Shown piece by piece: positions 1,301 to 18,628 of a stretch of DNA of 46,159 nucleotides. The notes under the pieces were generated by a model. It searched no databases. It was not told where the DNA came from and worked only from the letters and a program-made list of their open reading frames with translations. A program made the translations under genes and the position numbers. Location of the stretch: the NCBI RefSeq assembly GCF_000026185.1, contig NC_010693.1, positions 1 through 46,159 on the forward strand. The letters are read 5' to 3'. Each line of letters begins with the position of its first letter. The stretch's first letter is position 1. The stretch is from Erwinia tasmaniensis Et1/99 (GTDB taxonomy: Bacteria; Pseudomonadota; Gammaproteobacteria; Enterobacterales; Enterobacteriaceae).

Positions 1301-1321
1301 GCTATTGGGTAGGTCCTAGGT

Positions 1322-1346
1322 CCCCGGCCATCGCCGGGGCGGGTTT
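1322..1346 (+). terminator. Hairpin terminator downstream of the repA/origin region
   Basis: CCCCGGC (1322-1328) pairs with GCCGGGG (1333-1339) over a 4-nt loop and is followed by CGGGTTT. The T run is short, so termination may be weak. The following 1350-1825 has GC-rich hairpins and a repeat but no convincing gene. Confidence 0.45.
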
Positions 1347-1605
1347 CTGACCCGCAAACTTCCTGAAACCCCGGCAACGGAACATCAGCGAAAGAAAGCG
1401 CCGTATAAATGGCACGCACGGGGAAACCTGGCCCACTGCAAAGCCCCGCCGCCCCGGGCCGACGGCCCGGAACAGTGTGGCTTTATAATGGGTGTTGTAA
1501 CTAAGGCCACTGTGTTGCGGCCAGAGGCGTTGCGTTAAGTTAAAGGTACACGCCCGTAAGCGGCCCAGAGGCCCGCTAACGCGGAGATACGCCACGGCCA
1601 TGCCC

Positions 1606-1735
1606 GTGACCACTCCGGCGGCGCAGAGAGGCTTCTCCGTCGCGTTAAGCGGGGCTGGCCTGGCAGGGAGGGGGGGGGATTGATGAAACCTTTCAGACCG
1701 GAACCGGCTTCGCCGGGCGACCGGCGCCCCTTGCC
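1606..1735 (+). repeat. Long imperfect direct repeat, copy 1 (partner at 35123-35246)
   Basis: About 130 bp here, starting at a GTGACCAC and running through GCGTTAAGCGGGG and CTGGCCTGGCAGGG, recurs with scattered differences at 35123-35246 in the same orientation. It contains a G10 run (1669-1678). Neither copy has a convincing open frame. It looks like IncFII-type backbone non-coding DNA that has been duplicated, and could serve homologous recombination within the plasmid. Confidence 0.65.
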
Positions 1736-1826
1736 TGTGGGTGTCCTTTTTAGCTGTGGCTGGCGCCTTCATGCGCAGAGCGCATACCGCGCTGTTTTGT
1801 AACAGCGGTGGCACAGCAAATGCATC

Positions 1827-1873
1827 TTGAGGAAACAGTATCAAGATAGTTACTATGCTGTATGTATGAACAG
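1827..1873 (+). promoter_or_regulatory. SOS (LexA-controlled) promoter of the bacteriocin operon
   Basis: A perfect-consensus LexA box, CTGTATGTATGAACAG (1858-1873; CTGT-N8-ACAG), lies just after a sigma-70-like promoter, TTGAGG (1827-1832), 18 bp, TACTAT (1851-1856). LexA here would cover the transcription start. The box also sits in the loop between two perfect 12-bp inverted arms (1842-1853 and 1878-1889). Known colicin promoters are LexA-repressed, so DNA damage should induce the genes that follow. Confidence 0.88.
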
Positions 1874-1927
1874 TAAAGTAACTATCTTGCACCACTTCCC
1901 AACAACAGTACAAATGAGGACATCAAC

Positions 1928-3070: not shown

Positions 3071-3149
3071 TTAATATTGGGGGCTGAGCACTGTTGAGCG
3101 TCTTTGCAGGCGATAAGCGTGCAACACGATGAATTTAAGGAGTTCGATT

Positions 3150-5051
3150 ATGGGTGGATTTAATTACGGCGGTGGCAAAGGAGATGGCACCAGCTGGAGT
3201 AGTGAGCGAGGAAGTGAGCCGGCACCGGGCGGTGGTTCTCATGGCAATAGTGGCAGAGGATCAGGAAATGGCAATAACGGAAATGACAAGGCCAGGGTCA
3301 GCTGGGAAGTCATGAAGCCTGGCGATTCAATTAACACCCCCTGGGGAGAGGTCATTATTAACGATGAAGGCTTTCCTGCGATGAATGGTATCGTCATGAC
3401 CGAAGAGAATTCTTCTCTGGTCAATGACGGCACAAATAAAATTGTCCGCGTTTTAAGTTCGTTAATTAAGGATACCCCGCCGCCGACTGGTGGAGCTAAC
3501 GGCGGGTATACTATCGCGGGCAAAACGGTTTACGCGCAACCCGGCCACCCTGATGTGGTCGATGCAGGATACCAATATGGTGATGTAAAAGGAAAGTATC
3601 AATATTACTCCCGCGTAGGGAATAATATTTACTCTGTTCTGGTTCACAAGAATGGTGTTATCGACAACACATTCCTCGCATCAGGGGTGGAGTCTGGAAA
3701 TCGCTCCGCCAGGGAGGAGCAGAAAGATAAAGCCTGGCAACAGGTCTGGTTTTACCTGAACGACAAAAAAGAGGCACAGATAAAGGCGGAGGAGGCCCGC
3801 AAGGCAGAGGAGGCCCGCAAGGCGGAAGTCGCCCGGAAAGCGCTGTTCGATAAAGCCGGCATACTGGATGCGCCCGCGTACACGCCTGAAAAGGTGAAGG
3901 CGGCCAATGCCGCGCTGGCGTCTGCCGGTGCCATGGTGCTTAACCGGGCTCCCGCAATGTTACAGATGTCGACGGTCGGACAAGGGGTGATGACGACCTC
4001 CAGCGAACTGGCCGGATGGGTCTCAAGCGCATTGTGGCGCGGCGCGGTGGAAGTTGGCAGCATACGTGCGGGTACCGCAGTTGCGGCAGGGGCAGTACTG
4101 GGTGCATTTACTCTTGCTTTCTACCCGACGGAGGTTGGAGCAGGAAGTGACCAGGTACCCGGGCGGGATGTTAATCTGTTTGCTCTTCAGGCGAGCCTGG
4201 CCGCCGCGGGGCGGACATCAATCCAGCCGGGCATGACCTCGATTGATATGCCGGTCCGCGGGTTTATCTCCACTGACGAAACTGGCCGTCAGAGTGTAAA
4301 CTTTGTCAGAACAGGGGTGGGGGGGGTGTCGCCGAGCGTACCGGTATTCCGGCCTGTGCGTGATGAACAGACCGGACTGGATAAAATTACACTGCCGGCG
4401 ATGGAAGGCGTGCCGGCCAGAACGATTTTGATAAACCCGATGCCTACCGGGCCGGCAGCGCCCGCACACACCGGCAACGACTCGCCGGTACCGAACAGTC
4501 CGGTACATACCGGTACCAACGTCAGGCAGGCGGACAGCATCGTGGTGACCACCTTCCCGGCCGATGTGGTGCAGGATTTGCAGGATTTTATCCTGTGGCA
4601 GCCGGATGCAACGGAGGTGGGCGTAGAAGCCATCTACGTGATGGTCAGCAGCCCAAGATACACGCCGGGTAAAGTCAGCGGCAAAGGGAAAAATGTGGGG
4701 GATGGTTGGTTGAATAAGGCGGGCCAGGAACTTGGCTCCCCGGTTCCAACCCAGATCGCGGACAAGCTGCGTGGGCGCAAGTTTGCGAGCTTTGATGCGT
4801 TCCGCAAGGCATTCTGGCAGGAAGTCAGTAAAGATCCTGCATTAGGCAAGCAATTCAATAATCAGAATAGGACAAACATAAAAAATGGTAAATCTCCGTT
4901 TGTTCCAGAATCAGAGCGAGTTGGTAGTCGTCAACGTTATGAACTTCATCATGTTAAACAAATAAAGGACAATGGGGCTGTTTATGATGTTGATAATTTG
5001 GGGATAATGACTCCCAGGCGGCACATCGATATCCATAAAGAGGGTAAATGA
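3150..5051 (+). CDS. Colicin E9/E2-type HNH DNase bacteriocin
   Basis: Secreted killer protein that cuts the DNA of competing cells. I choose ATG 3150 (633 aa) rather than the in-frame ATG 3129 because AAGGAG (3137-3142) sits 7 nt ahead of it. Residues 1-50 are Gly/Ser/Asn-rich like nuclease colicins and hold DGTSWSSE (12-19), which resembles the TolB-binding box DGSGWSSE of colicin E9. A charged helix of EEARKAE repeats lies near 213-235, a small-residue translocation-like region (about 255-330) follows, then a pyocin S/cloacin-like middle. The last ~133 residues match the E9 DNase, including [15 protein letters not shown], the YELHH pair (600-601) and the final HIDIH (His 625 and 629) that bind metal and cut. 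There is no long E-type receptor coiled coil, so the receptor is probably different. The immunity gene starts 2 nt after the stop. Confidence 0.93.
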
Positions 5052-5052
5052 A

Positions 5053-5310
5053 ATGGAAAATAAAAAAATTTCTGATTTTTCTGAGACTGAGTTTTTGGAG
5101 TTTGTGCGAAAAATTTGCCGGGCGGAAGGGGAAACGGAAGCTGATGATGATAAATTAGTTGATGAGTTTCGTCGCCTAACTGAACATCCTGATGGTTCAG
5201 ATTTAATTTATTATCCCCGAAATGATCGCGAAGACAGTCCAGAAGGAATCGTGAAAGAGGTTAAGGAATGGCGCGCCAAAAACGGCAAGCCGGGCTTCAA
5301 AAAAAACTGA
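5053..5310 (+). CDS. Colicin DNase immunity protein (Im9/Im2 family)
   Basis: 85 aa, the usual Im length. It binds the HNH domain of the preceding colicin and blocks it, protecting the producer. The conserved helix III region SDLIYYPRNDREDSPEGIV carries the two tyrosines that anchor Im proteins to the DNase, and the N-terminal half (SETEFLEFVRKICRAEGE) is the variable helix II specificity region. Start ATG 5053 is two bases after the colicin stop, with GAGGG (5040-5044) inside the colicin end as ribosome site, so translation is probably coupled. No lysis (bacteriocin-release) gene follows; the next 200 bp belong to a resolvase module. Confidence 0.95.
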   Translation: MENKKISDFSETEFLEFVRKICRAEGETEADDDKLVDEFRRLTEHPDGSDLIYYPRNDREDSPEGIVKEVKEWRAKNGKPGFKKN

Positions 5311-5333
5311 TCGTCAAACCCTCTCACTTTTTC

Positions 5334-5358
5334 AGCCCGGCTCAACGCCGGGCTTTGG
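5334..5358 (+). terminator. Terminator-like hairpin after the bacteriocin operon
   Basis: AGCCCGGC (5334-5341) pairs perfectly with GCCGGGCT (5347-5354) over a 5-nt loop. The trailing sequence TTGGGG has only two T residues, so it is a strong hairpin with a weak tail. It lies 24 nt after the immunity gene stop. Confidence 0.6.
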
Positions 5359-5399
5359 GGAGTAGTGGGGGTCAGTTTGGATATAGAGAATTATTGTAC

Positions 5400-5510
5400 G
5401 GCAAGCCTGTTTTTTGAACAGACTTGCCTGTGGCAATAGGGTACACCCTAACACCATAACCAAAACGTGACGGCGCACGATGAATGACATAACCTATATG
5501 CGATGATGTG
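5400..5510 (+). promoter_or_regulatory. res/promoter region of the first Tn3-type resolvase, shortened
   Basis: A hairpin (5400-5411 with 5417-5428, one mismatch) is followed by AGGGTACACCCTAACACC, AAAACGTGACGGC and AATGACATAACCTATATGCG. The same blocks occur, in order, upstream of the second resolvase (reverse strand, 15437-15560). There an extra ~27-bp unit (a second ATAACCTAxATGCGAT) is present, so this copy appears to have lost one resolvase-binding subsite. Confidence 0.6.
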
Positions 5511-5518
5511 GTGAAAAA

Positions 5519-6166
5519 ATGTTCATCAGGGCTTATTTGAGAGCATCGACGGAAGATCAGTTCGCCGATAGGGCAAAAGAGATGCTGGAGCAGTTCGTTC
5601 AGGAACGGGGGCATAAAATCGCCAGTTACTACCGGGAAAATATCAGCGGGACAAAACTTGACCGCCCGGAGCTGGGACGTTTACTGATGGACAGTCACCA
5701 CAATGATATTTTGCTGATCGAGCAGATAGACCGCCTGACCCGTCTGAGCAACAGCGACTGGATGACGCTGAAAAGGCAGATCGAGAAACACGAGCTGAGG
5801 ATTGTCAGCCTGGATGTCCCAACATCATGGCAGGCGCTGTCAGATAAAGACCCTTCGCAGGCTGACCCAATCACCCGCGCCGTGATAACCGCCATCAATA
5901 ACATGCTTATCGATCTGATGGCCGCGATGTCGCATAAGGACTGGCTGAGCCGCCGCCAGCGGCAGAAACAGGGAATTGAACGGGCCCATGCGCTGGGGAA
6001 ATACCGGGGAAAACAGGCCGATCAGGAACGGCACCAGAAAGTCCTGTACTACCGACAGGTTAAGAAACTGAGTATCCATGAAACAGCCGATGCTACGGGC
6101 TACAGTCCCTCTCAAATATGTCGAATTCAGGCACTGCACCGAGAAAGTCAATCAAAAGTGGGGTGA
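5519..6166 (+). CDS. tnpR: Serine resolvase (TnpR-like), orphan copy
   Basis: 215 aa small serine recombinase that resolves transposon cointegrates at res. The catalytic Ser10 lies in YLRASTEDQ, the conserved Arg region in SGTKLDRPELGRLL and DRLTRLSNSDW, and a helix-turn-helix ends the protein (KKLSIHETADATGYSPSQICRI). It is almost identical to the resolvase at 14801-15436, but here there is no transposase next to it, so it is a leftover of an earlier insertion of the same transposon family. The last residues (LHRESQSKVG) differ from the other copy (IYKKNL), placing the break in homology at about 6140. Confidence 0.9.
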   Translation: MFIRAYLRASTEDQFADRAKEMLEQFVQERGHKIASYYRENISGTKLDRPELGRLLMDSHHNDILLIEQIDRLTRLSNSDWMTLKRQIEKHELRIVSLDVPTSWQALSDKDPSQADPITRAVITAINNMLIDLMAAMSHKDWLSRRQRQKQGIERAHALGKYRGKQADQERHQKVLYYRQVKKLSIHETADATGYSPSQICRIQALHRESQSKVG

Positions 6167-6171
6167 CAGAC

Positions 6172-6378
6172 CTATACGAGAGATATGATTTTTCTGGCTT
6201 TCTCAAAGTGGTCCAGTTTCATTTCCATGATCCACCATTGGGCTACTTCCATGAGTAATTCCGGGTCATCATTCTTGTTGGAAAAAAAAGCATAAAATGA
6301 CACGCCAACATCATTCCCTTTCACCGCAATCTTAGCTTCACATACTTTCACAATTTTCGCTCGGATACTGGGTCTCAT
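6172..6378 (-). CDS. Small protein of unknown function
   Basis: 68 aa, not recognised. On the reverse strand AGGGA lies a few bases before the ATG, supporting translation. It is mildly aromatic (YAFFSNKN, QWWIMEMKLDHFEKA) and has no signal or membrane segment. It fills the gap between two recombinase genes, its stop lying 6 nt from the stop of the first. It could be a passenger gene or a fragment. Confidence 0.45.
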   Translation of the reverse strand: MRPSIRAKIVKVCEAKIAVKGNDVGVSFYAFFSNKNDDPELLMEVAQWWIMEMKLDHFEKARKIISLV

Positions 6379-6425
6379 TATCTTTCCCTGATGGGGTCGG
6401 TTCCGGCTGAGGGCGAAATGACACC

Positions 6426-7031
6426 CTAAGCGTTAGCTCTGTGTCGTTGCACGATGTCAGCGACGGTATTCTTGCTGATACCGAGCTCGCGTGCGATCCA
6501 GCGATAGCTGCGTCCCTCGGCTCTCATCGCAACCACCTTAGGCAAAAGTCGGTCTGATTTTGGTCGCACTCCGGCCTGACGACCAAGCCTCTTACCACGT
6601 GCCTTCGCAACAGCAAGGCCTGACTTGACCCGCTCGCTGATGAGATCCCGCTCAAACTCCGCAATGCCGGAAAGAAACGTCGCCAGCATTCGTCCATACG
6701 GCGACGAAAGATCGAACGCCATTCCATTCATGGCTATCACGGAAACCTTCCAGTTCTCCAGTTCACGTAGTGTATTGAGCAGATCGAGCGTCGAGCGCCC
6801 CCACCGGGAAAGCTCAGTGACCAGGATTGCATCAATTTGCCTAGTCTGGGCAAGCGCCAGGACTTTCTTTCGCTCAGCCCGGTCGAGTTTAGTTCCTGAA
6901 CCTGTTTCCTTAAATATTCCCACCACGTCGTAGCCCGCACGGCCGGCGAAGGCTCGCAGATCAAATTCCTGGCGTTCACAAGACTGATCAGCTGTTGAAA
7001 CCCGGCAGTAAATGGCGGCACGATGTCCCAA
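6426..7031 (-). CDS. Serine recombinase of the resolvase/invertase family
   Basis: 201 aa. The N-terminal catalytic domain has the active serine in YCRVSTADQ (Ser12), then TGSGTKLDRAERKKVL, ELSRWGRSTLDLL and the E-helix region GRMLATFLSGIAEFERDLISERV. The C-terminus is a Hin-type helix-turn-helix (GRSYRWIARELGISKNTVADIV). The start is a TTG at 7031, supported by AGGAGGG five bases upstream. It is a different subfamily from the two TnpR copies on this plasmid and is widely seen on enterobacterial plasmids. Its 5' end overlaps the truncated restriction gene, suggesting that its arrival cut that gene. Confidence 0.88.
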   Translation of the reverse strand: MGHRAAIYCRVSTADQSCERQEFDLRAFAGRAGYDVVGIFKETGSGTKLDRAERKKVLALAQTRQIDAILVTELSRWGRSTLDLLNTLRELENWKVSVIAMNGMAFDLSSPYGRMLATFLSGIAEFERDLISERVKSGLAVAKARGKRLGRQAGVRPKSDRLLPKVVAMRAEGRSYRWIARELGISKNTVADIVQRHRANA

Positions 7032-7520
7032 TTGAACCCTCCTGGATTTTTGTATCGGAACGCCCTGATTTATATGGGCTGGCTGTTGTCCAAAACAGAC
7101 TATCGTCTGGTGAACACGCTGGAAGGCTTTATGCCGAAGCTCAGAGCACGTTACGACGATATTTACGTGCTGCGTAATGACGAGCAGTCAACGCGCTTTA
7201 AGCTCACAGAGTTCGGCGGCGTGCGCGGCTTTATGCCGGATTTCATCATGATACTGACGCGCAATGCAGATAACGCTTACTGGCAGGTATTCCTTGAGCC
7301 GAAAGGGGATGACCGCCTGCTGGATGACGCCTGGAAAGAAAGGATGCTCGAAACCCTGAACGACAGGGAACGCATTGTGATTGATGAAAATGAAGACGTC
7401 CGGCTGGTCGGGATTAAATTCTTTGCCAACAGCCAGATGGATGCCTTCGTCAGCGACATGCAGAACCGGCTGAACGATGGCGAATCGCTTGAAACCGCCT
7501 CGCTCTCCCTGCCTATGTAA
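7023..7520 (+). pseudogene. C-terminal fragment of a type III restriction enzyme Res subunit (helicase-nuclease)
   Basis: 165 codons with the PD-(D/E)xK nuclease core of type III Res subunits: FMPDFIMIL, then WQVFLEPKGDD (D...ExK). Flanking text such as ALIYMGWLLSKTDYRLVNTLEGFMPKL is typical of the end of Res. Everything ahead of it (the DEAD/DEAH helicase, some 700-800 residues) and the mod gene are missing. The upstream edge coincides with the start of the recombinase gene on the opposite strand. It cannot restrict DNA alone. A strong terminator follows. Confidence 0.8.
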
Positions 7521-7535
7521 GTCACGACATCAACA

Positions 7536-7571
7536 AATAACGGAGCGTAATGCTCCGTTATTTTATTTTTT
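7536..7571 (+). terminator. Strong bidirectional intrinsic terminator
   Basis: AATAACGGAGC (7536-7546) and GCTCCGTTATT (7552-7562) form an 11-bp stem with loop GTAAT, followed by TTATTTTTT. The A-rich left flank gives a T tract on the reverse strand too, so it can also end the truncated reverse-strand gene that stops at 7563. Confidence 0.9.
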
Positions 7572-7756
7572 GATAATCATCCAGGTATTCTCTTTATCAC
7601 CATACGTAGTGCGGGTATCCACTTTAACGCAGGGCTTCCCGTCACAACGCGATATATCAGCCAGCGGCGCTTTCTGCTGGCAGATCGCCTCCATCCGTTG
7701 CATTTCGGCCATCCGGCTGTACCCGTCATTAATAAACCACGTCAGTGCGGTCATAT
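7563..7756 (-). pseudogene. Truncated small protein (5' end lost to a miniature element)
   Basis: About 64 residues remain (MTALTWFINDGYSRMAEMQRMEAICQQK... ending NTWMIIKK). The hydrophobic N-terminal end looks like the tail of a membrane or signal segment, followed by a region with two cysteines (SRCDGKPC) that could be periplasmic. The natural start is missing: upstream of 7756 the frame runs into the Tn3-derived miniature element. I do not recognise the family. Confidence 0.5.
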
Positions 7757-7867
7757 TAGCGATTAAAAACACATCGTTTTAAGCGAGTTTTTCACTGTCC
7801 ACAATGTTATGATTTATTGGACAAAAAGCCTTAATGTGTGAAAACGTTCCGTTGAGCGTCGAACCCC
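7755..7867. mobile_element. Tn3-derived inverted-repeat miniature element, copy 1 (one end lost)
   Basis: This stretch is about 95% identical to the right half of the complete copy at 11901-12107. It keeps the ~38-bp terminal repeat (reading inward from 7867: GGGGTTCGACGCTCAACGG...), a Tn3-like IR, and a 28-bp TGTCC-N18-GGACA site at 7796-7823 that resembles subsite I of Tn3/gamma-delta res. The left terminal repeat is missing, cut where the truncated gene on its left begins. On the right it ends inside an IS1 remnant. Confidence 0.75.
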
Positions 7868-8110
7868 TACTACCAACAAAGCTCCATTGCTCATCAAGTT
7901 CACAGATGAATACAACATCAGCATGCGCAACTGGATAGGACGTTATTCGCCTTGGCGAGAGTTTTTTAAAGTGGGGAAACAGTATTAATACCGACTTTAA
8001 ACGTTCTTGCGGTATCACGGACACCAGCTCCATTGCATGCCATCTCGGTAATCTGTTCTTTGACGCTATGTTTACTAGCTTCATAGAAATCGGTCGCGGC
8101 CTTTAGGGTT
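7868..8110 (-). pseudogene. IS1-family transposase remnant (end of insA and start of insB)
   Basis: On the reverse strand one frame reads TEMACNGAGVRDTARTFKVG (InsA helix-turn-helix part) and stops at TAA. The next frame, reached at the A6C slip site typical of IS1, reads KKLSPRRITSYPVAHADVVF and then DEQWSFVGS of InsB. The insB sequence stops abruptly at the edge of the miniature element (7867), so the catalytic part is absent. Confidence 0.75.
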
Positions 8111-8425
8111 TTGACCATGACGGTATACTTGAATAGATTGGCATCGTGGACAATGAACAGTAACGCTGGCTATGATGAAGCCTCAAAAGCCTAATCATAC
8201 CTCAATTCAACCAATTAGAGGCATTACCTAAAATACTTAGACGAAAAGGCATAACGCTTCTCTTTATTAATCACCGTACCTTAGTTCTAAGAGAGAAAAG
8301 AAGTGAACGGAAATATCAAAAAAGTTTATATAAAATAAAATTTTGGCTAATTAATAGTCACATCATCTTAATACTCAGGGAATGTGCTAGCATAGCCGTC
8401 TAGATTAACGAGGGATGAGCGATTT
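8111..8425. other. AT-rich intergenic region upstream of the IclR regulator
   Basis: No gene seen. Its AT content rises sharply from about 8190, marking the start of the metabolic island. A plausible promoter for the regulator lies in 8340-8395 (TTGGCT near 8343 and TTAATACT near 8369), but it is weak by eye. GAGGGATGAG before ATG 8426 gives a ribosome site. Confidence 0.4.
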
Positions 8426-9118
8426 ATGGCGAATCAAAACAACGTACTTAAAACGGTTGAGAGGACGATACTAACACTCGAAGTGTTGAGTGAATCTCAA
8501 GAAAAGTTGAGCCTCTCTGATATCGCAGAAAAACTCTCTGTTAATAAAACAACCTTACATGGCCTTCTCAATACCTTAGTTATTCTTGGATACGCATTAA
8601 ATGAGAAGGGGATGTATAGCTTAAATAGTAGAATACAATTACTTTCTAAAGCGAATCAGAATAACAGATTAATAATTGACAGATACCATCATTATATTGA
8701 TAAAATAGCATATAAGACCTCGATCACCTGTTTTTTATCTATTCGAACGGGAAGTCATCATTATATGATTATTGACTATATCGAGCAGGATTATAAGTTA
8801 TCAATTAATGAAAAAAGACATGACTTCTTCTCAACCATTTCATCTGCCACCGGTAATATTTTTCTCGCCTATGATAAACCTTTACTTCACTCGCTACGTA
8901 AAGGTGGGTTTATTACACCAGTACTGGAACGTAAGATAAAAAAAATCCAGCAACAAGGCTATGCCGTGGATGTAGGTCAGGTTGAGCAGCAAACCTTCTG
9001 CCTTGCCTTTCCTATGATTTCTGAAGGGAAGCTTGACGCCTCTTTAAGCTTAGTCAGCCATTCAAAAGAACACCTTAAAAGCGTGTTAGACCGTGTTAAA
9101 CTTTTTTTAACACCTTGA
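8426..9118 (+). CDS. IclR-family transcriptional regulator
   Basis: 230 aa. The N-terminal winged helix-turn-helix (about 8-62: KTVERTILTLEVL, LSLSDIAEKLSVNKTTLHGLLNTL) is typical of IclR proteins. The C-terminal effector domain is present but short and diverged, ending VLDRVKLFLTP. It lies directly upstream of, and in the same direction as, a TPP-dependent dehydrogenase operon that it most likely controls in response to the substrate. Composition is much more AT-rich than the plasmid backbone, in keeping with acquisition together with the downstream genes. Confidence 0.85.
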   Translation: MANQNNVLKTVERTILTLEVLSESQEKLSLSDIAEKLSVNKTTLHGLLNTLVILGYALNEKGMYSLNSRIQLLSKANQNNRLIIDRYHHYIDKIAYKTSITCFLSIRTGSHHYMIIDYIEQDYKLSINEKRHDFFSTISSATGNIFLAYDKPLLHSLRKGGFITPVLERKIKKIQQQGYAVDVGQVEQQTFCLAFPMISEGKLDASLSLVSHSKEHLKSVLDRVKLFLTP

Positions 9119-9121
9119 TTA

Positions 9122-9142
9122 AAGTTTGGCATAGTCAAACTT
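9122..9142. promoter_or_regulatory. Palindrome between the regulator and the dehydrogenase genes
   Basis: AAGTTTG (9122-9128) and CAAACTT (9136-9142) are perfect inverted arms over 7 bp. It can act as the regulator's operator or as a weak terminator hairpin; it lacks a T tract. An AT-rich promoter-like stretch (CATAATATTATATTT, around 9170-9185) follows before the acoA start. Confidence 0.45.
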
Positions 9143-9290
9143 GGACCCGCTACATTTACTCTTACTCGCCATAATATTATATTTACCCACAACAAGAAGG
9201 CGAGGAAAATCCTTTACCTCACCTCTTTCTATCCACACCTGATAAATTAAATGATTTTATATAAAAAATTAAATTCCAATGAGGTTAATT

Positions 9291-10295
9291 ATGAGTAAAG
9301 AAATTATTGGCAAAAAATCACATGATTATAATCAAATAGCACCTAACTTATTATTACGTGCTTATAAGAGTATGAAAACAATTCGTGTATTTGAGGATCG
9401 CTTACATCAGGATTATGCGACAGGCACTATCCCGGGATTTGCCCACCTCTATGCCGGTCAGGAAGCGACCGCTGTTGGCATTATGTCACACCTATCCGAT
9501 AGCGATCAGATCGCCAGTACGCACCGTGGGCATGGTCACTGTATTGCAAAAGGCGTCGATGTCATCGCCATGATGAAAGAGATCTACGGCAAAGCCGGTG
9601 GTGTTTGTAATGGTAAAGGCGGTTCGATGCATATCGCTGACTTAAGTAAAGGGATGATGGGTGCAAACGGAATCTTAGGCGCTGGAGCCCCCTTAGTCTG
9701 CGGAGCTGCCTTAGCAGCGAAGATCCGTGCACAGGGAGACGTTGCAATCTGTTTTGGTGGTGATGGCGGAGTCAACCAAGGTGCCGTACTAGAAAGTATG
9801 AACCTAGCTACCGTGTGGAATCTCCCCCTCATGTTTGTTGTAGAAAATAATGATTATGCTCAATCAACGCCGCAAAAAAGATCTACGTCAGTCACAAGTT
9901 ATGAAGATCGTGCTAAAGGCTTCGGTATGCCGAGCGTCACCGTTGATGGACTGGACTTCTTCTCCGTTTATCTCGTAGCCGGTGAATTAATTGAACGTAT
10001 GCGTAACGGCGGTGGACCGGTACTACTGGAATGCAAAAATGTACGTTTCTATGGGCACTTCGAAGGTGATCAGCAAGCTTACCGCCCCGCAGGTGAAGTG
10101 GATCAGGCTCGTCGTGATAGAGATTGCTTGAAAATCTTTATCGATAAAGCTCAACAGCAAGGTATCTCGCTCGCTGCCTTAACCGAAATAGACCAGCAGG
10201 TTGCCGCGTTAATTGATGAAGCCGTTAACGCAGCTAAAGCCGCGCCTGAGCCGGAGGCTGATGCTTTATACCGCGACGTCTATGTGAATTACTGA
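9291..10295 (+). CDS. acoA: TPP-dependent dehydrogenase E1 alpha subunit (acetoin dehydrogenase AcoA-like)
   Basis: 334 aa from ATG 9291; the in-frame ATG 9279 is rejected because the GAGG ribosome site lies between the two. The thiamine pyrophosphate motif runs from GGDGGVNQGAVLESMNLA (Asp158) to FVVENNDYA (187-188). HLYAGQEA and THRGHGHCIAKG are hallmark stretches of acetoin and branched-chain 2-oxoacid E1 alpha chains. With the beta subunit it should cleave a 2-oxo or acyloin substrate and pass the acyl group to a lipoyl E2. The best family guess is acetoin dehydrogenase. No E2 (acoC) or E3 (acoL) gene lies on the plasmid, so either chromosomal partners are used or the pair works alone. 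Confidence 0.85.
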   Translation: MSKEIIGKKSHDYNQIAPNLLLRAYKSMKTIRVFEDRLHQDYATGTIPGFAHLYAGQEATAVGIMSHLSDSDQIASTHRGHGHCIAKGVDVIAMMKEIYGKAGGVCNGKGGSMHIADLSKGMMGANGILGAGAPLVCGAALAAKIRAQGDVAICFGGDGGVNQGAVLESMNLATVWNLPLMFVVENNDYAQSTPQKRSTSVTSYEDRAKGFGMPSVTVDGLDFFSVYLVAGELIERMRNGGGPVLLECKNVRFYGHFEGDQQAYRPAGEVDQARRDRDCLKIFIDKAQQQGISLAALTEIDQQVAALIDEAVNAAKAAPEPEADALYRDVYVNY

Positions 10296-10323
10296 TAGAA
10301 AATTTTAAGAATAGGATTTGACC

Positions 10324-11325
10324 ATGACCAGAATGATTTCAATGAAACTTGCCATCAACGAAGCGATGGACCAAGAAATGATGCAAGACCCGAATATCAT
10401 TATGTTCGGACAAGATACGGCAGGCGGGGTTGGCACAGGCGGTGAAGTCGATTGTTGGGGAGGTGTTTTAGGGGTAACGAAAGGCCTTTATACCAAACAT
10501 GGAGATCGTGTGATCGATGCTCCACCAACAGAGATGGCATATGTTGGGGCTGCAGTAGGCGCCGCAGCCTGTGGAGTCCGTACCATTGCAGAAGTCCCTT
10601 TTATTGATTTTATGGGTGTCTGCCTCGACCAGCTGATGAATCAGGCGGCCAAAATCCGCTATATGTTCGGCGGTAAAGCTGAAACACCACTGGTCGTCAG
10701 AACGATGGTCGGTGCGGGTATCAATGGTGCGGCTCAGCATTCCCAAATGCTGACCTCTCTTTTTACTCACATTCCAGGGTTAAAAGTGGTATGCCCTAGT
10801 AATGCGTACGATGCAAAAGGATTAATGATCCAAGCTATCCGTGATAACGATCCTGTTGTGTTCTGTGAACATAAAAATCTTTATGAGACTGAATGTGACG
10901 TCCCTGAGGAGAGTTATACCTTACCTTTCGGGAAGGCACGTATTGCACGCGAAGGTAGCGATGTGTCCATCATCACTTATGGTCAGATGGTTAACCGCAG
11001 TATAGACGCAGCCAAACAGCTAGCGACAAAGGGGATAAGTGTAGAAGTGGTTGATCTTCGTACTTTATCGCCACTCGATATCGAAACAGTTCTGGCCTCA
11101 GTAGCGAAGACACAACGCTTCGTTGCGGTAGATGAAGCCTATCCACGCTGTAATATCGCCACCGACATTGTCGCTCAAGTAGTCCCTAAACTCTTTGGAC
11201 TACTTAAGGGTGCACCGCAAGTCGTGAGTGCCCCTCATACTCCGGTACCTTTTTCGCCTAATTTGGAAGCGCTGTATATTCCAAGTGTCGAACAGATTTG
11301 CCAAGCCGTCGAGCGCACTTTCTAA
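10324..11325 (+). CDS. acoB: TPP-dependent dehydrogenase E1 beta subunit (acetoin dehydrogenase AcoB-like)
   Basis: 333 aa from ATG 10324 (a TTG two codons earlier is less likely; TAGGA sits about 8 nt ahead). It has the transketolase pyrimidine-domain signature (MISMKLAINEAMDQEMMQDPNIIMFGQD; VIDAPPTEMAYVGAAVGAA; AEVPFIDFMGVCLDQLMNQAAK) and the C-terminal domain (EVVDLRTLSPLDIETVLASV, FVAVDEAYP). It forms a heterotetramer with the alpha subunit 28 bp upstream. A terminator-like hairpin follows its stop. Confidence 0.87.
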   Translation: MTRMISMKLAINEAMDQEMMQDPNIIMFGQDTAGGVGTGGEVDCWGGVLGVTKGLYTKHGDRVIDAPPTEMAYVGAAVGAAACGVRTIAEVPFIDFMGVCLDQLMNQAAKIRYMFGGKAETPLVVRTMVGAGINGAAQHSQMLTSLFTHIPGLKVVCPSNAYDAKGLMIQAIRDNDPVVFCEHKNLYETECDVPEESYTLPFGKARIAREGSDVSIITYGQMVNRSIDAAKQLATKGISVEVVDLRTLSPLDIETVLASVAKTQRFVAVDEAYPRCNIATDIVAQVVPKLFGLLKGAPQVVSAPHTPVPFSPNLEALYIPSVEQICQAVERTF

Positions 11326-11333
11326 CTTAACTT

Positions 11334-11360
11334 ACCCTGATCGCGTTCCGGTCAGGGTTT
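11334..11360 (+). terminator. Hairpin between acoB and the HbpS-like gene
   Basis: ACCCTGA (11334-11340) pairs with TCAGGGT (11352-11358) and is followed by TTT. It probably reduces, but may not abolish, transcription of the small gene that begins 12 nt later. Confidence 0.65.
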
Positions 11361-11372
11361 TGGAGATTCGTT

Positions 11373-11807
11373 ATGTCACCGATAACCCCTTCGGTCTATT
11401 CACTACAACACATTACGGCTGAAGCAGCCGAATTGGCCAGCAAAACAGCGTTACGTTTAGCGGAAGAAATGGGTATCTTAATCTCGGTCGCCATAGTGGA
11501 TAATGGCGGGCACCTGCTTCATTTTGCTCGCCATGACGCGGCCCAATTCCTAACTATTGATGTCGCCATCAATAAAGCATGGACCGCAAGTAGCTTTGCG
11601 CTCCCCTCACATGCTTGGAATGAGATCGTTCAGCAGCCTTCTCTTGCCCCGCTATCACAAACGCCACGCTTTACCCCCGTTGCGGGAGGTTGTCCTCTCT
11701 ACTATCAAGATGGGATCATTGGTGCTATCGGCATTTCGGGCGGTAGCCCACAGCAAGATCACTACTTGGGCAACTGCACTGTTCAACATTTGGATTTCCA
11801 GAAGTAA
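11373..11807 (+). CDS. HbpS/GlcG-like (haem-degrading domain family) protein
   Basis: 144 aa. The pattern AEAAELASKTALRLAEEMGILISVAIVDNGGHLLHFARHDAA, then TIDVAINKAWTASSF and FTPVAGGCPLYYQDGIIGAIGISGG, is that of the GlcG/HbpS family (also the C-terminal part of PduO-like proteins). Members often sit in operons for small alcohol or hydroxyacid breakdown and bind haem or cobalamin-like ligands; the function is rarely known. ATG 11373 is preceded by GGAG. It lies at the end of the aco operon and is likely co-expressed by readthrough. Confidence 0.75.
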   Translation: MSPITPSVYSLQHITAEAAELASKTALRLAEEMGILISVAIVDNGGHLLHFARHDAAQFLTIDVAINKAWTASSFALPSHAWNEIVQQPSLAPLSQTPRFTPVAGGCPLYYQDGIIGAIGISGGSPQQDHYLGNCTVQHLDFQK

Positions 11808-11900
11808 GTCTGGATAACATTGATTAACTATCTTCTCTATCACCGCGCGTCGTTGGTTGAGAAATGACTAAAAACTCGACCGCCTGTTCTGACTGATTAT

Positions 11901-12107
11901 GGGGCTGATTCTCAGTGGAGCGAAAACTCACGTTAGGCGAGGAAGATCGTCTGAAAAATCGATTAATGGACAGCAGTGTCCGTTAAATGCAATTTAGCGA
12001 TTAAAAAAACACATCGTTTTGAGCGAGTTTTTCACTGTCCACAATGTTATGATTTATTGGACAAAAAAGCCTTAACGTGTGAAACCGTTCCGTTGAGCGT
12101 CGACCCC
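11901..12107. mobile_element. Tn3-derived inverted-repeat miniature element, complete copy 2 (207 bp)
   Basis: The left end (GGGGCTGATTCTCAGTGGAG, continuing to ACTCACGTTAGG at 11937) and the right end (reading inward from 12107: GGGGTCGACGCTCAACGG...) are opposed repeats that both resemble the 38-bp Tn3 IR. No coding sequence lies between. The interior has a 28-bp TGTCC-N18-GGACA site (12036-12063), like res subsite I, and another TGTCC half site near 11978. The right end abuts the broken transposase gene at 12107. A third, decayed copy lies at 36441-36645. Confidence 0.78.
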
Positions 12108-12843
12108 CTTGCATGGGAAACACTGGCGCTGGATGATGCACTGGACGTTCTGGACGCTATGCTGGCCGTTATCATCCGTGACGCCAGAAAGATTGGGCAG
12201 AAAAAACGGCTCCGCTCGCTGAAGGATCTGGATAAATCTGCATTGGCGCTCGCCAGCGCATGTTCGTACCTGCTGAAAGAAGAAACACCGGACGAATCAA
12301 TTCGTGCTGAGGTGTTCAGCTACATCCCTAGGCAAAAGCTGGCTGAAATCATCACGCTTGTCCGTGAAATTGACCGGCCCTCAGACGATAATTTACATGA
12401 CGAAATGGTGGAGCAGTACGGACGCGTTCGTCGTTTCATGCCCCATCTGCTGAATACCGTTAAATGTTCATCCGCACCTGCCGGGGTTACCACTCTGAAT
12501 GCCTGTGACTACCTCTTCCGGGAGTTCAGCTCAGGGCGGCAGTTTTTTGACGACGCACCAACGGAAATTATCAGTCGGTCATGGAAACGGCTGGTGATTA
12601 ACAAGGAAAAACATATTACCCGCAGGGGATACACGCTCTGCTTTCTCAGTAACCTGCAGGATAGTCTGAGACGGAGGGATGTCTACGTTACCGGCAGTAA
12701 CTAGTGGGGAGATCCCCGTGTAAGATTACTACAGGGTACTGACTGGCAGGCAAACCGGATTAAGGTTTATCGTTCTTTGGGGCACCCGACAGACCCGCTG
12801 GAAGCAATAAAATCTCTGGGTCATCAGTTTGATAGTCGTTACA
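12107..12843 (+). pseudogene. tnpA: Tn3-family transposase, middle fragment of a split, broken gene (continues at 18624)
   Basis: Reads PLAWETLALDDALDVLDAML through LVREIDRPSDDNLHDEMVEQ and SWKRLVINKEKHITRRGYTL, a Tn3-family TnpA. The N-terminal part is missing, cut by the miniature element at 12107. An in-frame TAG (12702-12704) interrupts it; beyond that the same frame continues WGDPRVRLLQGTDWQANRIK and ends GHQFDSRY at the insertion point of the 5,780-bp transposon. Reading resumes across that transposon at RQVAARLGENEAVELD. Non-functional. Confidence 0.85.
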
Positions 12844-12881
12844 GGGCTCCGTTTGGGAAACGGAAAATATTGTACGTTAAG
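12839..12881. repeat. 5-bp target duplication (TTACA) and left 38-bp inverted repeat of the nested transposon
   Basis: TTACA at 12839-12843 is followed by the 38-bp IR beginning GGGCTCCGTTTGGGAAACGG (12844-12881). The same IR in reverse, with one mismatch, is at 18586-18623, followed by TTACA (18624-18628). A 5-bp duplication is the hallmark of Tn3-family transposition. Confidence 0.95.
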
Positions 12882-12952
12882 CTCATTTTTTAAGCATGAC
12901 AACGTTGCACAGAAGCTTAAACGTACACACCGCTATGCAACGTAGGTCGTGA

Positions 12953-14779
12953 TCAATCGCTTAATGAAACAATGCCTTCAAGAATTTCTATAAGCTCAAT
13001 TTTGTCACTATCGCCATCTCTATAAGTAGAGCATTTTATGATCCTTTCGGCAGTCATTAAGGGCCAGAACTTGTCCAGTACGTCGTTAGGTTTCGTGTTG
13101 GTTGCCTTTCCTATGATTTTTTTAGCGTCACATGTATCAGTGAAAACAACCTGAACCCCTGTCTCATCTCTTATTAGGTCCGGGCAAAGATAATTTTCAA
13201 CTTCACGTTTACGTGTGGAAAAAAACATTTTTCCGGCCTCTTCCACTTCCTTCTTTCTTTTCTCTATCGAAAGAACTTGTGCTGGATCACCTCCAATATC
13301 TGAATCGAGAAAAACGCACCATGGAAGTCCAAGGTCATTTGCCAGATTTAATGTGACCCAATGTTTAACACTCCCGCACCCTCCAATAAGTATGGGCACA
13401 ATATTTACATCTTCCAGGTTAACAGGAATATCCCCTGATTTTTTTAAACATATTCCTGCATGCCTAAGGAAGGTTACATCTGATTTCCCCTCAACTAAAA
13501 CTATACCTTTAGCTCTTTCCATGCCGGTTTCTGGTAAAACTCCAAGACTTTCTGTCGCCTCCCTGAGAACTGCATTGTCTGGCATTTTTACAACAGGCTG
13601 TCCATCTTCGTCTTTTGTTACATAACGAATGCCTTCGACTGGAATTAATCCTGCTAAAGCTGGGACGTGTGTAGTTACAATAATTTGCCGATTAGGTTTA
13701 TTTGAAAGTAACAATAAAGCTTTCATCAACATAATTTGATAATTAGGGTGCTGTGATGTTTCTGGTTCTTCTATAGCGTAAATAACGTTGCGCGGGGTCC
13801 CTGATACTGCCTTCTCAGCCTCCGCTCTAAAAAAATTAAGTAAAATAAGTCGCCTTACACCACTTCCCCTTTTATTTATTGGAATTCCATTCTCACCATC
13901 TAGTGTAAAGTTAAATGTCCATTTAGGCTTTTCTTTAAACCGCGGAGTGAGTTCATTCGCAAGCTCTGGTGCCATTTCACGCAGTTTATCAAGAGTCCTC
14001 CCTGCAACATCTAATACACTGTCCTGGATTTCTTGTTCAAGAGCTGAAATCTTCCCTTGCAATGCAGCCTGAGCATCCTTAACAGCCTGTTGTAATGGGT
14101 TTTTTGCTTCAGAGTCACCATCGCTACTCTCCCTATCTGCCTTGAAAAGAGCAAAGGTTGGTAGTTGTTCAAGAATCCGCCCCCATATCGACTTAGTTTC
14201 TGTGCCTAATCCTTTATCCACATCAAGTAAAATTTCAGCACATTCATATGGCATAGCAGCATCTCTGATTGCTTGTCTCCATAACGATGCAGTTCGTTTA
14301 TCCTCCACTTTTTGTTCAACATCTTTTCCTATCGCTTTCAATTCTGATATTTTCATTCCCAGCAAATTGTTCAACGGTTCATTTACAGGGTGCTGGCAAC
14401 GGATGTATGTTTTATCTGGTTTTCCAGTTGTTGTTGCTTTGAATGTTTTTACAATTTCGAAACATTCATGACTATTTAATAAATGCTCAGAAGCCAAAGT
14501 CGTGCTCACTCGCTCATCAATAAGTATTACGGGTGGCAGATCATCAAACTCACAAGAAATTTCAAAGTGAGTATCCCCATTAGCCATGCTAAAGCAGTTC
14601 ATGTCATTTTTATCTGCTTTAATACCATCAATTTCAAAAAATATAGCTAATGCCTCAAGGATTGTTGACTTACCAAAATCATTGCGGCCTACAATTCCTG
14701 TCATGGCTTCATCGACAGGAATTTCTATTGTATTTCTGTAACCCCTGAAATTAGTAAGTTTGATCTTTTTGAGCCGCAT
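12953..14779 (-). CDS. OLD-family nuclease (ABC-type ATPase plus TOPRIM), transposon passenger
   Basis: 608 aa. An ATPase of SMC/RecF type: Walker A GRNDFGKST (31-39), signature GSGVRR (305-310), Walker B IYAIEEPETSQHP (333-345), H-loop TTHVPALAG (369-377). A coiled stretch lies near 225-270. A TOPRIM nuclease domain follows, with LVEGKSD (Glu430) and FLDSDIGGD (Asp492, Asp494). This is the domain order of OLD proteins, which include P2 Old and GajA of the Gabija defence system. No helicase partner (GajB/UvrD-like) is adjacent, so a solitary class of OLD is suggested. Transcribed divergently from tnpA; the resolvase stop lies 22 bp upstream of its start, so the two may share a message. An anti-phage role is inference. 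Confidence 0.9.
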   Translation of the reverse strand: MRLKKIKLTNFRGYRNTIEIPVDEAMTGIVGRNDFGKSTILEALAIFFEIDGIKADKNDMNCFSMANGDTHFEISCEFDDLPPVILIDERVSTTLASEHLLNSHECFEIVKTFKATTTGKPDKTYIRCQHPVNEPLNNLLGMKISELKAIGKDVEQKVEDKRTASLWRQAIRDAAMPYECAEILLDVDKGLGTETKSIWGRILEQLPTFALFKADRESSDGDSEAKNPLQQAVKDAQAALQGKISALEQEIQDSVLDVAGRTLDKLREMAPELANELTPRFKEKPKWTFNFTLDGENGIPINKRGSGVRRLILLNFFRAEAEKAVSGTPRNVIYAIEEPETSQHPNYQIMLMKALLLLSNKPNRQIIVTTHVPALAGLIPVEGIRYVTKDEDGQPVVKMPDNAVLREATESLGVLPETGMERAKGIVLVEGKSDVTFLRHAGICLKKSGDIPVNLEDVNIVPILIGGCGSVKHWVTLNLANDLGLPWCVFLDSDIGGDPAQVLSIEKRKKEVEEAGKMFFSTRKREVENYLCPDLIRDETGVQVVFTDTCDAKKIIGKATNTKPNDVLDKFWPLMTAERIIKCSTYRDGDSDKIELIEILEGIVSLSD

Positions 14780-14800
14780 GTGTAGTCCTTATTTTGTTTA

Positions 14801-15436
14801 TTAAAGATTTTTTTTATATATAGTCTGTATTCGACATACTTGCGAACAACTATATCCTGTCGCATCAGCTGTTTCTCGAATACTCAGTTTCTTAATCTGG
14901 CGGTAGTACAGTACTTTCTGATGACGCTCACTATCGGCTTGTTTACCCCGGTATTTACCCAGCGAATGAGCCCGCTCAATCCCCTGTTTTTGTCGCTGGC
15001 GGCGGCTCAGCCAGTCCTTATGCGACATTGCTGCCATCAGGTCGATAAGCATGTTATTGATGGCTGTTATAACAGCACAGGTGATCGGATCTGCCTGAGA
15101 AGGATCTTTATCTGATAGCGCCTGCCATGAGGTGGGAATATCCAGACTGACAATTCGCAGTTCGTGTTGTTCGATCTGTTTTTTCAGGGTCATCCAGTCA
15201 CTGTTACTCAGTCGAGTCAGTCGGTCTATCTGCTCGACCAGCAAAATATCATTACGGTGACTATCCATCAGTAAGCGCCCCAACTCTGGACGGTCAAGTT
15301 TTGTACCGCTGATATTCTCACGGTAGTAGCTGGCGATTTTATGTCCCCGTTCCTGGACAAACTGCTCCAGCATCTCTTTTGCCCGATCGGCAAACTGATC
15401 TTCCGTCGATGCCCTCAAATAAGCTCTGATGAACAT
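14801..15436 (-). CDS. tnpR: Transposon resolvase TnpR (serine recombinase)
   Basis: 211 aa, catalytic Ser10 in YLRASTEDQ, nearly identical to the orphan resolvase at 5519-6166 over the first ~200 residues. The C-terminal helix-turn-helix reads LSIRETADATGYSCSQVCRI. It resolves cointegrates at the res region just upstream (15437-15560) and probably represses both tnpR and tnpA. One substitution worth noting against the other copy is SQADPITCAV versus SQADPITRAV. Confidence 0.93.
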   Translation of the reverse strand: MFIRAYLRASTEDQFADRAKEMLEQFVQERGHKIASYYRENISGTKLDRPELGRLLMDSHRNDILLVEQIDRLTRLSNSDWMTLKKQIEQHELRIVSLDIPTSWQALSDKDPSQADPITCAVITAINNMLIDLMAAMSHKDWLSRRQRQKQGIERAHSLGKYRGKQADSERHQKVLYYRQIKKLSIRETADATGYSCSQVCRIQTIYKKNL

Positions 15437-15560
15437 TTTTTTACCACTTTATCGCATTTAGGTTATTGCATTTATTCTATCGCATATAGGTTATGTCATT
15501 AGGCGAGTGCCGTCACGTTTTGGCTATGGCATCAGAGTGTACCCTTATGCGATAAGCATT
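15437..15560. promoter_or_regulatory. res site and divergent promoter region
   Basis: Between the divergent tnpR and tnpA genes lie repeated and inverted units: TTATCGCATTTAGGTTAT, then TATCGCATATAGGTTATG (two near-direct copies about 30 bp apart), CGTCACGTTTTGGCTATGG and, further right, TTATGCGATAA. They match the pattern of resolvase-binding subsites and recur, minus one unit, before the orphan resolvase. Confidence 0.7.
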
Positions 15561-15603
15561 TTTGTTAAAAATACCGCATCGAATAATTTATGAGGGAAAC
15601 TAT

Positions 15604-18590
15604 ATGGCAAGGAGGCAGATTCTTTCACTGTCGGAAAGAGAATCATTACTGGCATTACCGGACGATGAGTTAACGCTGACCCGAATGGCGTATTTCAGCG
15701 AGCAGGATCTGGCATTTATTAATGCTCACCGTAAACCCGCCAGTCGGTTTGGTTTTGCCGTCCTTCTCTGTTATCTGAAAAATATCGGGTTTGCTCCGGA
15801 TAAAAAATCGTCTCCACCGGCAGAATTGCTCAGAGTCATCGGCAACCGCCTTAAACTTTCAGCAGAACTCTGGCAGGAATATATTTCCGGCCGTGAGACC
15901 ACCCGGCGTGAGCACCTGAGTGAACTCTATCGCTATCTGGAACTGAAGGCTTTCAATGGTGCGCTTCAGAAAGAATGTATCCAGTATCTGCTCCCTCTGT
16001 CTACCCGGACTGATCGGGGCATACTTATCGCAGAGGAATTACTGAAATATCTGCATCAACAGCGAATTATTGTTCCTGGTATTGATGTTGTGGAACGTAC
16101 CTGTGCTGAAGCAATGACGCTGGGTGATAAAGCGATTTATACCACGCTGAATACGCACCTTAGTGCCACGCATAAATCAGCGTTTGATGCGCTACTGGTG
16201 ACAACTGAAAAGCAAATTTCTCGTTTAACGTGGTTGCTTCAGCCTCCTGGGAAGATCAATGGAAAGAATGTCCTGCAACATATCGACCGCCTTAACACCA
16301 TTGAAGCACTGGCGCTACCGGAAGGGGTGGAGAGAACGGTTCACCAGAACCGATTGCTGAAACTCGCGCGTGAGGGCCGCAAAATGAGCAGCCGGGATTT
16401 AGCTGATTTTTCCCCTGCGCGTCGATACGCAACGATAGTCTGTGAACTGACTGAAGCCAGAGCTACAATTATTGATGAAATTATAGAACTGCACGAACGT
16501 ATTCTGGGCAGCATGTTCAGCCGGGCAAAACGTCAGCAGACCGAACGCCTTCAGAAAACAGGTAAGCTGATACAGCAAAAATTACGTCAGTATGTTTCCG
16601 TTGGGCAGGCAATCCTGGATGCACGCAACGCAGGCGAAGACCCTCTGTCTGCTGTTGAACAGATATTACCGTGGGAAGATTTTGCCGCCAGCCTGGAGGA
16701 AACCCGGCTCCTTGCACGTAAGGATAATTTCGAACCACTTCATCTTATTACCGAAAAATTCAGCACACTGCGTAAATATTCTTCCCGATTGTTATCGGCC
16801 CTGCAACTGATGGCCACTCCGGCCGCCTTACCTCTTAATGACGCCCTCGATACTATCCGTGAGATGTACCGTAAGCAGCTAAGAAAGATTCCTTCATCGG
16901 CACCGCTGGATTTCATTCCCGAGAGCTGGAAAAAGATGGTGATCACCCACTCTGGTATTGACCGGCAATACTATGAAATTTGCGCAATGAACGAGCTGAA
17001 GGGGGCACTGCGGGCCGGTGATATCTGGGTCCGGGGCTCCCGGCGCTACAAAAACTTTGATAGTTACCTTATACCGGGCGGTGATTTTGATAAATTATTA
17101 AATAATAACCAGTTGAATATACCTGTCGAAACAGAATGCGGGGCTTACCTTAAGGCCCGGCTGACGCTGCTGGCCTCCCGCCTGGAGGAAGTTAATGCAA
17201 TGGCTGTCACAGGAGATCTGCCCGATGTGGATATATCTGACAAAGGCTTAAAGGTCACTCCCCTGGATAACAGAGTTCCCTCAGCAATTTCACCGCTGGC
17301 CGACCTGATTTACAACATGTTACCGCATCCCAAAATTACAGAAATACTGGATGAGGTTGAACGATGGACTGCCTTCACGCGTCATTTTACCCACCTGAAG
17401 AACCCGCTTACCCGCCCGCAGGATGATCGTTTGCTTCTCACCACCATCCTGGCGGATGGCATCAATCTGGGGCTGACTAAAATGGCAGAGTCCTGTCCGG
17501 GAACCACACGGGCTTCGCTGGAAAATATGCAGGCATGGTATATTCGCGATGAAACGTACTCTGCTGCACTGGCCGAACTGGTTAATGCCCAGAAGTCACG
17601 TCCGCTGGCAGCATTATGGGGAGATGGTTCAACCTCATCTTCTGACGGCCAGAATTTTCGGGTTGGCAGCCACGGCCGCTATGCGGGTCAGGTCAATCTG
17701 AAGTACGGCCAGGAGCCGGGTGTACAGTTTTATACGCATATTTCTGACCAGTACAGTCCGTTTTACACCAAAGTGATCAGCCGTGTTCGTGACTCGACCC
17801 ACGTACTTGATGGCCTGCTGTATCACGAAAGTGATCTTGAAATAACCGAGCATTACACCGATACGGCAGGTTTTACGGAACATGTTTTTGCGCTGATGCA
17901 TTTGCTGGGGTTCGCTTTTGCACCAAGGATCCGGGATCTTCACGACAGGCGGTTGTTTATACACGGGAAAGCTAATAAATACCCTGCACTACAGTCAATT
18001 ATTTCCACAACACCACTGAATATCAAGGACATAGAAAGCCACTGGAGTGAAATCCTGAGGCTGGCCACCTCAATAAAGCAGGGAACAGTGACTGCGTCTT
18101 TGATGCTGAAAAAACTGGCCAGTTATCCCAAACAGAACGGACTTGCTAAGGCGTTGAGGGAAATTGGCCGTATCGAGCGAACTTTGTTTATGCTGGACTG
18201 GTTCCGCGATCCAGCATTGCGTCGCAGAGTTCAGGCCGGTCTGAATAAAGGAGAAGCCCTAATGCCCTTGCCAGAGGAGTCTTCATGCATCGTCTTGGCG
18301 AAATAAGGGATCGAGGTCTGGAAAACCAGAGTTACCGGGCCAGCGGACTGACGCTGATTACCGCCGCGATCACATTGTGGAATACCGTATATATAGAAAA
18401 CGCCATTAACCTTCTGAAAAGAAAGGGGCTACATCTCAATGAGCAATTGTTGTCACACCTGTCTCCGCTGGGTTGGGAGCATATTAATCTGACGGGAGAC
18501 TATATCTGGCGAAACAATAAAAAGCTGGCTGAAGGAAAGTATCGACCTTTGCGGTCAGTTGATGTCAGTCGGTACAAAAAATCACCCTAA
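15604..18590 (+). pseudogene. tnpA: Tn3-family transposase TnpA with a single-base frameshift near its C-terminus
   Basis: Start ATG 15604 has GAGGGA six bases ahead. About 890 residues read cleanly (MARRQILSLSERESLLALPD...) and include the RNase H-like catalytic stretches WGDGSTSSSDGQ (first Asp), HYTDTAGFTEH (second Asp) and LNKGEA (probable Glu, 130 residues after the second Asp). After GEA at about 18260 the frame shifts: the next frame continues [20 protein letters not shown] to [11 protein letters not shown] and a TAA (18588-18590) inside the terminal repeat. One base is missing between GCC and AAT. The first frame instead ends at 18306 with 20 foreign residues. The last ~110 residues are therefore lost unless ribosomes slip or the base is a sequencing error. 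Confidence 0.88.
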
Positions 18591-18628
18591 CGTACAATAT
18601 TTTCCGTTTCCCAAACGGAGCCCTTACA
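18586..18628. repeat. Right 38-bp inverted repeat and target duplication of the nested transposon
   Basis: CCTAACGTACAATATTTTCC continuing to CAAACGGAGCCC (18586-18623) is the reverse complement, with one mismatch, of 12844-12881; TTACA follows. The tnpA stop codon is inside it. Confidence 0.95.

Follow-up and report, generated by a model that had tools for sequence, protein, structure and literature searches.

The first 46,159 nucleotides of contig NC_010693.1 of Erwinia tasmaniensis Et1/99 (referred to here as the window, in whose coordinates positions are given unless another locus is named) contain a block of metabolic genes lying between two copies of a short repeat with Tn3-type features, which raises the questions of how these genes reached their present place and whether they can still leave it. 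The first-pass annotation had read the block as a TIME-composite or a resolvase-mobile cassette, which a resolvase could excise or insert at two direct res sites and which a Tn3 transposase could move by the outer inverted repeats.

The two direct repeats are real, and lie within one or two bases of where they had first been placed. Copy 2 (11901–12107, plus strand) is a complete unit of 207 bp, recognized by homology and by Tn3-like inverted terminal repeats at both ends, and its size, these ends and the missing transposase gene mark it, on sequence grounds, as a miniature Tn3 element (TIME). Copy 1 (7756–7867, plus strand) aligns to copy 2 in direct orientation from TIME position 94 to the right inverted repeat at 207, with 108 identities, three mismatches and four gap positions in the shared part (about 94%); the left terminal repeat is absent, and copy 1 is thus a TIME remnant with a right end only. 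A 28 bp site of the form TGTCC-N18-GGACA, resembling res subsite I, had been reported in each copy, and the window does contain exactly two exact instances, at 7796–7823 in copy 1 and 12036–12063 in copy 2 (both on the plus strand), identical to each other and, in copy 2, aligning with subsite I of Tn1000. Using what we take to be the limits of the Tn1000 subsites, alignment of the TIME interior to the Tn1000 res assigns subsite III of copy 2 to 11948–11972 and subsite II to 11977–12013 (plus strand). Copy 1 retains subsite I, its sole complete subsite, together with the right part of subsite II, and lacks subsite III and the left part of II. The pair therefore holds one complete res (copy 2, by alignment) and one partial res, and the original description of two res-carrying miniature elements applies in full to copy 2, copy 1 being a right-hand fragment.

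The case that the interior is res-like is carried by the comparison with the Tn1000 res in the same orientation (z 8.9 for the local score against 300 base shuffles), for which the reversed control gave z 2.1; the forward match to the Tn3 res (z 4.6, 300 base shuffles) is weak by itself because the reversed Tn3 res reaches z 3.8. No res-like match above shuffles was seen with the Tn5403 gap (z −0.9 and 0.5) or with that of the second Tn3-family transposon in the window (z −0.4 and 0.9). The interior scores highest against IS101 itself (z 21.9, 300 base shuffles), and copy 2 is 75% identical to the IS101 of pSC101 over 146 columns, so that by similarity extending beyond the ends the element can be assigned to the IS101 group. 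A search for the 207 bp unit elsewhere, as suggested in the first-pass annotation, covered 72,556 plasmid records and found relatives in 1204, of which 390 have 80% or more of the unit in one place; the closest among the matches listed is a copy in Buttiauxella pBTX_57 with 88.9% identity to copy 2. Relatives this numerous show that the repeat is not a chance one. Within the genus Erwinia, 16 of 37 genomes match the TIME at E ≤ 0.001, several only by the terminal repeat. One genome of this genus (G022) carries two direct pairs of related complete TIMEs, at 5814–6007 and 7715–7908 of locus L171 and at 4851–5044 and 7548–7749 of locus L172; a serine-recombinase-like ORF lies within the first pair, and no matching 5 bp flanks were found by eye around the TIMEs of either.

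The genes between the copies are those that had been named, and Pfam agrees with each: an IclR-family regulator (8426–9118; PF09339 and PF01614 above cut-off), a TPP-dependent dehydrogenase E1 alpha subunit similar to AcoA (9279–10295; PF00676, 302 bits), an AcoB-like E1 beta subunit (10318–11325; PF02779 and PF02780) and an HbpS/GlcG-like protein (11373–11807; PF03928, 109.9 bits), all on the plus strand. The E1 alpha protein scores under the cut-off of the NCBIfam model for pyruvate dehydrogenase E1 alpha, and the acetoin label of the cargo is a putative one taken from the names of homologues. The block from 8220 to 11892 is AT-rich as described, with 44.2% G+C vs 49.4% for the rest. Just outside the Tn3 end discussed below, an acetolactate decarboxylase-like gene (20390–21121; PF03306, 176.6 bits) places an acetoin-forming type of enzyme on the same plasmid as the acetoin-dehydrogenase-like E1.

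A likely relative of the source of this block can be recognized. Positions 8220–11892 (plus strand) align contiguously, at 84.2% over 3682 columns, with 8278–11949 of locus L170 in genome G366, and since the alignment is unbroken we conclude that the regulator, the three genes and both flanks arrived as one piece; L170 itself has no TIME or IS1 match and nothing else of the window. G366 is probably a Rosenbergiella, because its HbpS-like protein is identical at 143 of 146 residues to P0004, a protein under the name Rosenbergiella epipactidis at NCBI. The operon is present in one of the five genomes of the genus group of G366. In a first draw on the family, 26 of 392 genomes gave some match and the whole operon was found only in G366 and in the window's own genome; a second draw, of largely the same genomes, gave a whole-cassette match only in G366. 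The direct donor need not be of the G366 lineage, since the HbpS nearest to that of the window (94%) comes from Rahnella variigena.

The boundaries of this segment carry most of the information on its history. On the left, an IS1 relic (7868–8228, minus strand by its transposase ORF; 73% to an IS1), also seen in the first-pass annotation, has homology that begins at the base directly after copy 1, some 400 bp inside IS1, and runs to the IS1 end; among the matches listed the IS1 similarity starts at 7868 in 14 of 15 plasmid rows and at 7865 in the other, and the ORF within the relic reaches 26.8 bits against a cut-off of 100. On the right, copy 2 begins 8 bp past the end of the alignable donor flank, and its last base, a C common to both, is also the first base of a Tn3-subgroup tnpA fragment (12107–12844, plus strand; 96.5% to 8251–8988 of locus L120), of which 12107–12400 is 98.0% identical to Tn3 transposase genes. 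In loci L120 and L006 a Tn3 tnpA runs uninterrupted across the site that corresponds to the right end of copy 2. The remainder of the same tnpA, with a Tn3 terminal repeat at 20037–20075, follows at 18624–20075 (plus strand; 95.1% to L120 8983–10435). An assignment of the fragment at 12107 to Tn5403 was considered and dropped, L120 showing a Tn3-type tnpA that adjoins a Tn5403. The two parts of tnpA are separated by a different Tn3-family transposon (12844–18623), flanked by a TTACA duplication (12839–12843 and 18624–18628), with tnpR at 14801–15436 (minus strand), tnpA at 15562–18306, its last part in another frame at 18285–18590, and an OLD/AAA-type ATPase with a TOPRIM domain as passenger.

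The left edge of copy 1 is of another kind, being fused to a fragment of a MOB plasmid (7104–7753, plus strand; 89.7% to 3001–3650 of locus L007, pCF1807-7) that covers the last part of a helicase gene and a piece of mobX. Further left, at 6391–7103, lies the tnpR-side end of a Tn5403-type transposon, which breaks off in the tnpR–tnpA gap, about halfway through a TGTCC...GGACG sequence, a possible res core, and there joins the helicase gene fragment; none of 60 plasmid rows among the matches listed ends at this point, which makes it a single case. A gene for a colicin/pyocin-like DNase bacteriocin (3129–5051) and an immunity gene (5053–5310) lie beyond. The plasmid's replication region is closest to those of plasmids from Erwinia rhapontici, Winslowiella toletana and Erwinia persicina, which by itself would make Erwinia or a near relative the probable host.

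The three remaining element ends thus face the interior of IS1, the 3' flank of the operon and the interior of the Tn3 tnpA, and their flanks (TACTA, ATTAT and CTTGC respectively) do not match one another. Copy 1 accordingly represents the joint to the donor's IS1, and copy 2 the joint at which donor DNA meets the Tn3 target. The flanks of copy 2, ATTAT and CTTGC, form no target duplication of 5 bp (or 6 bp). An element at the end of a composite would be expected to lack one, and the mismatch does not speak against the descent of copy 2 from a TIME. Among the matches listed, from at least 5000 plasmid records in each case, none covers 80% or more of the junction query 11901–12400, which would place a TIME at this tnpA site, or of 7000–12800, which would represent an intact composite.

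With TIMEs on both sides of the donor segment and the outer right end in tnpA, the layout is that of a TIME-COMP insertion, and we consider it probable that the locus is a decayed TIME-COMP, in which the block jumped into a Tn3 tnpA and was later cut on the left. Two IS101-group TIMEs would have inserted in the same orientation around a Rosenbergiella-like E1alpha–E1beta–HbpS operon, the upstream one into an IS1 close to the operon, and a transposase of the Tn3/Tn1000 type, acting in trans on the outermost ends, would then have moved the block into the Tn3 tnpA on the plasmid. A later deletion or rearrangement on the left would have cost copy 1 its left end and two res subsites, and tnpA its 5' part, joining the remainder to the MOB-plasmid fragment. 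A single event at 7753–7756 can explain the lost left flank, the lost left half of copy 1 and the lost part of tnpA together; this 5' part was not found anywhere in the genome, where, a different transposon aside, matches to the Tn1000 TnpA begin at residue 287. Of a target-site duplication outside the composite, the left flank is lost and only CTTGC on the right remains. The joint at 7753–7756 may also be a mis-assembly. Taken by structure, two TIMEs (one complete, one a fragment) bound other genes, and we file the locus as a remnant, a well-bounded relic of TIME-COMP capture by the sequence at hand, the outer pair of inverted ends being absent. The TIME-composite of the first-pass annotation is retained in this sense, as the route of arrival, to which the direct TIMEs and their ends on IS1, donor flank and tnpA point, and given up as a description of something mobile now. 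The copies differ at seven alignment columns and are therefore unlikely to have arisen by recent duplication of a single TIME.

The alternative that survives best, though we regard it as unlikely, is that a lone TIME stood in the Tn3 tnpA and a circle with the operon and a second TIME on it integrated there by homologous or resolvase-mediated recombination. Such a model has been published for the related element MITESen1 (Gomi and Yano, in the excerpt of PMC13367494), and the direct copies, with about 112 bp in common and an identical subsite I, would suit it. With an ordinary TIME insertion, however, the inner flanks should share a 5 bp duplication, and it is because they differ (TACTA vs ATTAT) that we disfavour circle integration, although a circle derived from an earlier TIME-COMP would evade this test. 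We think it less probable still, and indeed rather remote, that the operon came by some other route, for example by IS1, and that the TIMEs inserted beside it later and played no part in moving it. The IS1 relic found where the donor segment begins and the frequency of TIMEs of this group in the genus (16 of 37 genomes, as above) speak for this, but IS1 was not found on the right side, and the right boundary of the donor segment lies no more than 8 bp from the end of a TIME whose other end starts the plasmid's Tn3, a joint that a late, neutral TIME insertion would leave unexplained.

A transposase requires two inverted ends, and with the outer left end in copy 1 absent and only the right end of copy 2 in place there is no pair of ends on which a Tn3 transposase could act. 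An intact cognate transposase of the Tn3/Tn1000 type was likewise not found in the genome, in which the Tn1000 transposase matches broken Tn3 tnpA pieces (residues 287–991 in three), the window's different transposon (27% over residues 18–895) and short fragments. Nor was a close Tn1000-type resolvase, the expected cognate, found there, the best match being 35% over residues 5–180. Efficient Tn3 resolution needs all three subsites, the left half of II and both halves of III being among the needed contacts (excerpt of PMC9943657). That the cassette moves today, by resolvase at two res sites or by transposition through its outer inverted repeats, is therefore scarcely credible with copy 1 lacking its left inverted repeat, subsite III and the left part of II, despite the two identical direct subsite I sequences, the similarity of the interior to the Tn1000 res and the finding that IS101 is resolved, poorly, by the Tn3 and Tn1000 resolvases (excerpt of PMC4133298); a mobile cassette with two working res sites was rejected for the present structure, copy 1 being truncated. 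On the preferred reading the decayed TIME-COMP, in which one end and one res are damaged, would now be fixed, capable neither of unit transposition nor of efficient resolution.

The cargo is itself unusual. We compared the best 80 of at least 576 confirmed genome loci for E1 alpha, and in 73 of these acoC, the E2 gene, lies within the locus stretch examined. An HbpS gene adjoins E1 beta in five loci, all without acoC, from Acinetobacter nectaris (L010), an Acetobacteraceae MAG (L011) and Acetobacteraceae/Bombella (L012–L014), and the operons of L170 and of the window likewise lack acoC. The other two acoC-less loci are cut by contig ends, L015 at 127 bases past E1 beta and L062 inside E1 beta; in L083 acoC is present and an HbpS match lies at a distance of about 4 kb. 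In a midpoint-rooted tree of 80 joined E1 sequences (L062 and L073 being left out of 82 as short) the HbpS-linked set and L015 form one clade with a support of 1.0. When whole genomes were searched with AcoC, the two control genomes showed matches over its full length (100% and 72%), but in the six genomes with the HbpS operon the matches extended over no more than one of the two AcoC domains, or a portion of it; the window's own genome gave two partial matches, within residues 123–353. The E1alpha–E1beta–HbpS operons are thus distinguished from ordinary aco clusters by the missing E2 gene and by their single clade. Downstream of the operon in A. nectaris lie ORFs that, named by eye, resemble thiamine-biosynthesis genes. 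A word search of the text of PMC11774029 found no mention of acetoin or pyruvate dehydrogenase, and no description matching a nectar-bacterium operon for acetoin dehydrogenase and a heme-binding protein was found in the literature by title and abstract.

It is conceivable, as a conjecture on which we would place little weight, that the acoC-less E1alpha–E1beta and HbpS-like proteins form a separate system circulating in nectar- and bee-associated bacteria of two proteobacterial classes, with miniature Tn3 elements as one vehicle and loss of a TIME end making the gain permanent. Such a loss would have this effect because two direct res sites make a composite prone to resolve. More generally, the locus would add to the resistance genes that have used the TIME-COMP route a metabolic operon whose relative can be traced to a nectar bacterium, and would suggest that damage to one flanking copy may turn a resolvable direct-repeat composite into a stable gene gain; the acoC-less E1–HbpS operon is a biochemical question in itself.

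TIMEs and TIME-COMPs are established categories (excerpts of PMC4133298 and PMC13367494), and the present locus shares features with several of their members. The element resembles IS101, as described in these excerpts, in length (207 vs 209 bp), in overall alignment and in its res-like interior, whereas by eye its terminal repeats are nearer to those of Tn3 than of Tn1000. IS101-bounded TIME-COMPs carrying qnrD1 and blaKPC-2 have been published, the copies in this element group being either direct or inverted, and direct res-bearing copies have been argued to be unstable (excerpt of PMC13367494). Like these, our locus has two copies around foreign genes, direct as in the qnrD1 case; unlike them, as far as the excerpt describes them, it has one truncated copy, no demonstrable flanking duplication and a metabolic rather than a resistance cargo. 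The TIME-COMPs bounded by MITESen1 also have direct copies and include a remnant with one damaged copy, but MITESen1 is 256 bp long and is given in the same excerpt as without similarity to known res sites, and the damage there was by IS26. No TIME-COMP with this kind of metabolic cargo was found described in the literature by title and abstract. The first-pass annotation is partly right in calling this a route of gene gain that has seldom been described for catabolic genes, but a precedent exists in the ARMphe elements around pheAB (excerpt of PMC4133298). These too are short Tn3-type elements that flank catabolic genes and have been read as a composite transposon, and differ from those of the Erwinia plasmid in being 240 bp long, in occurring in Pseudomonas and in having copies that are identical and complete.
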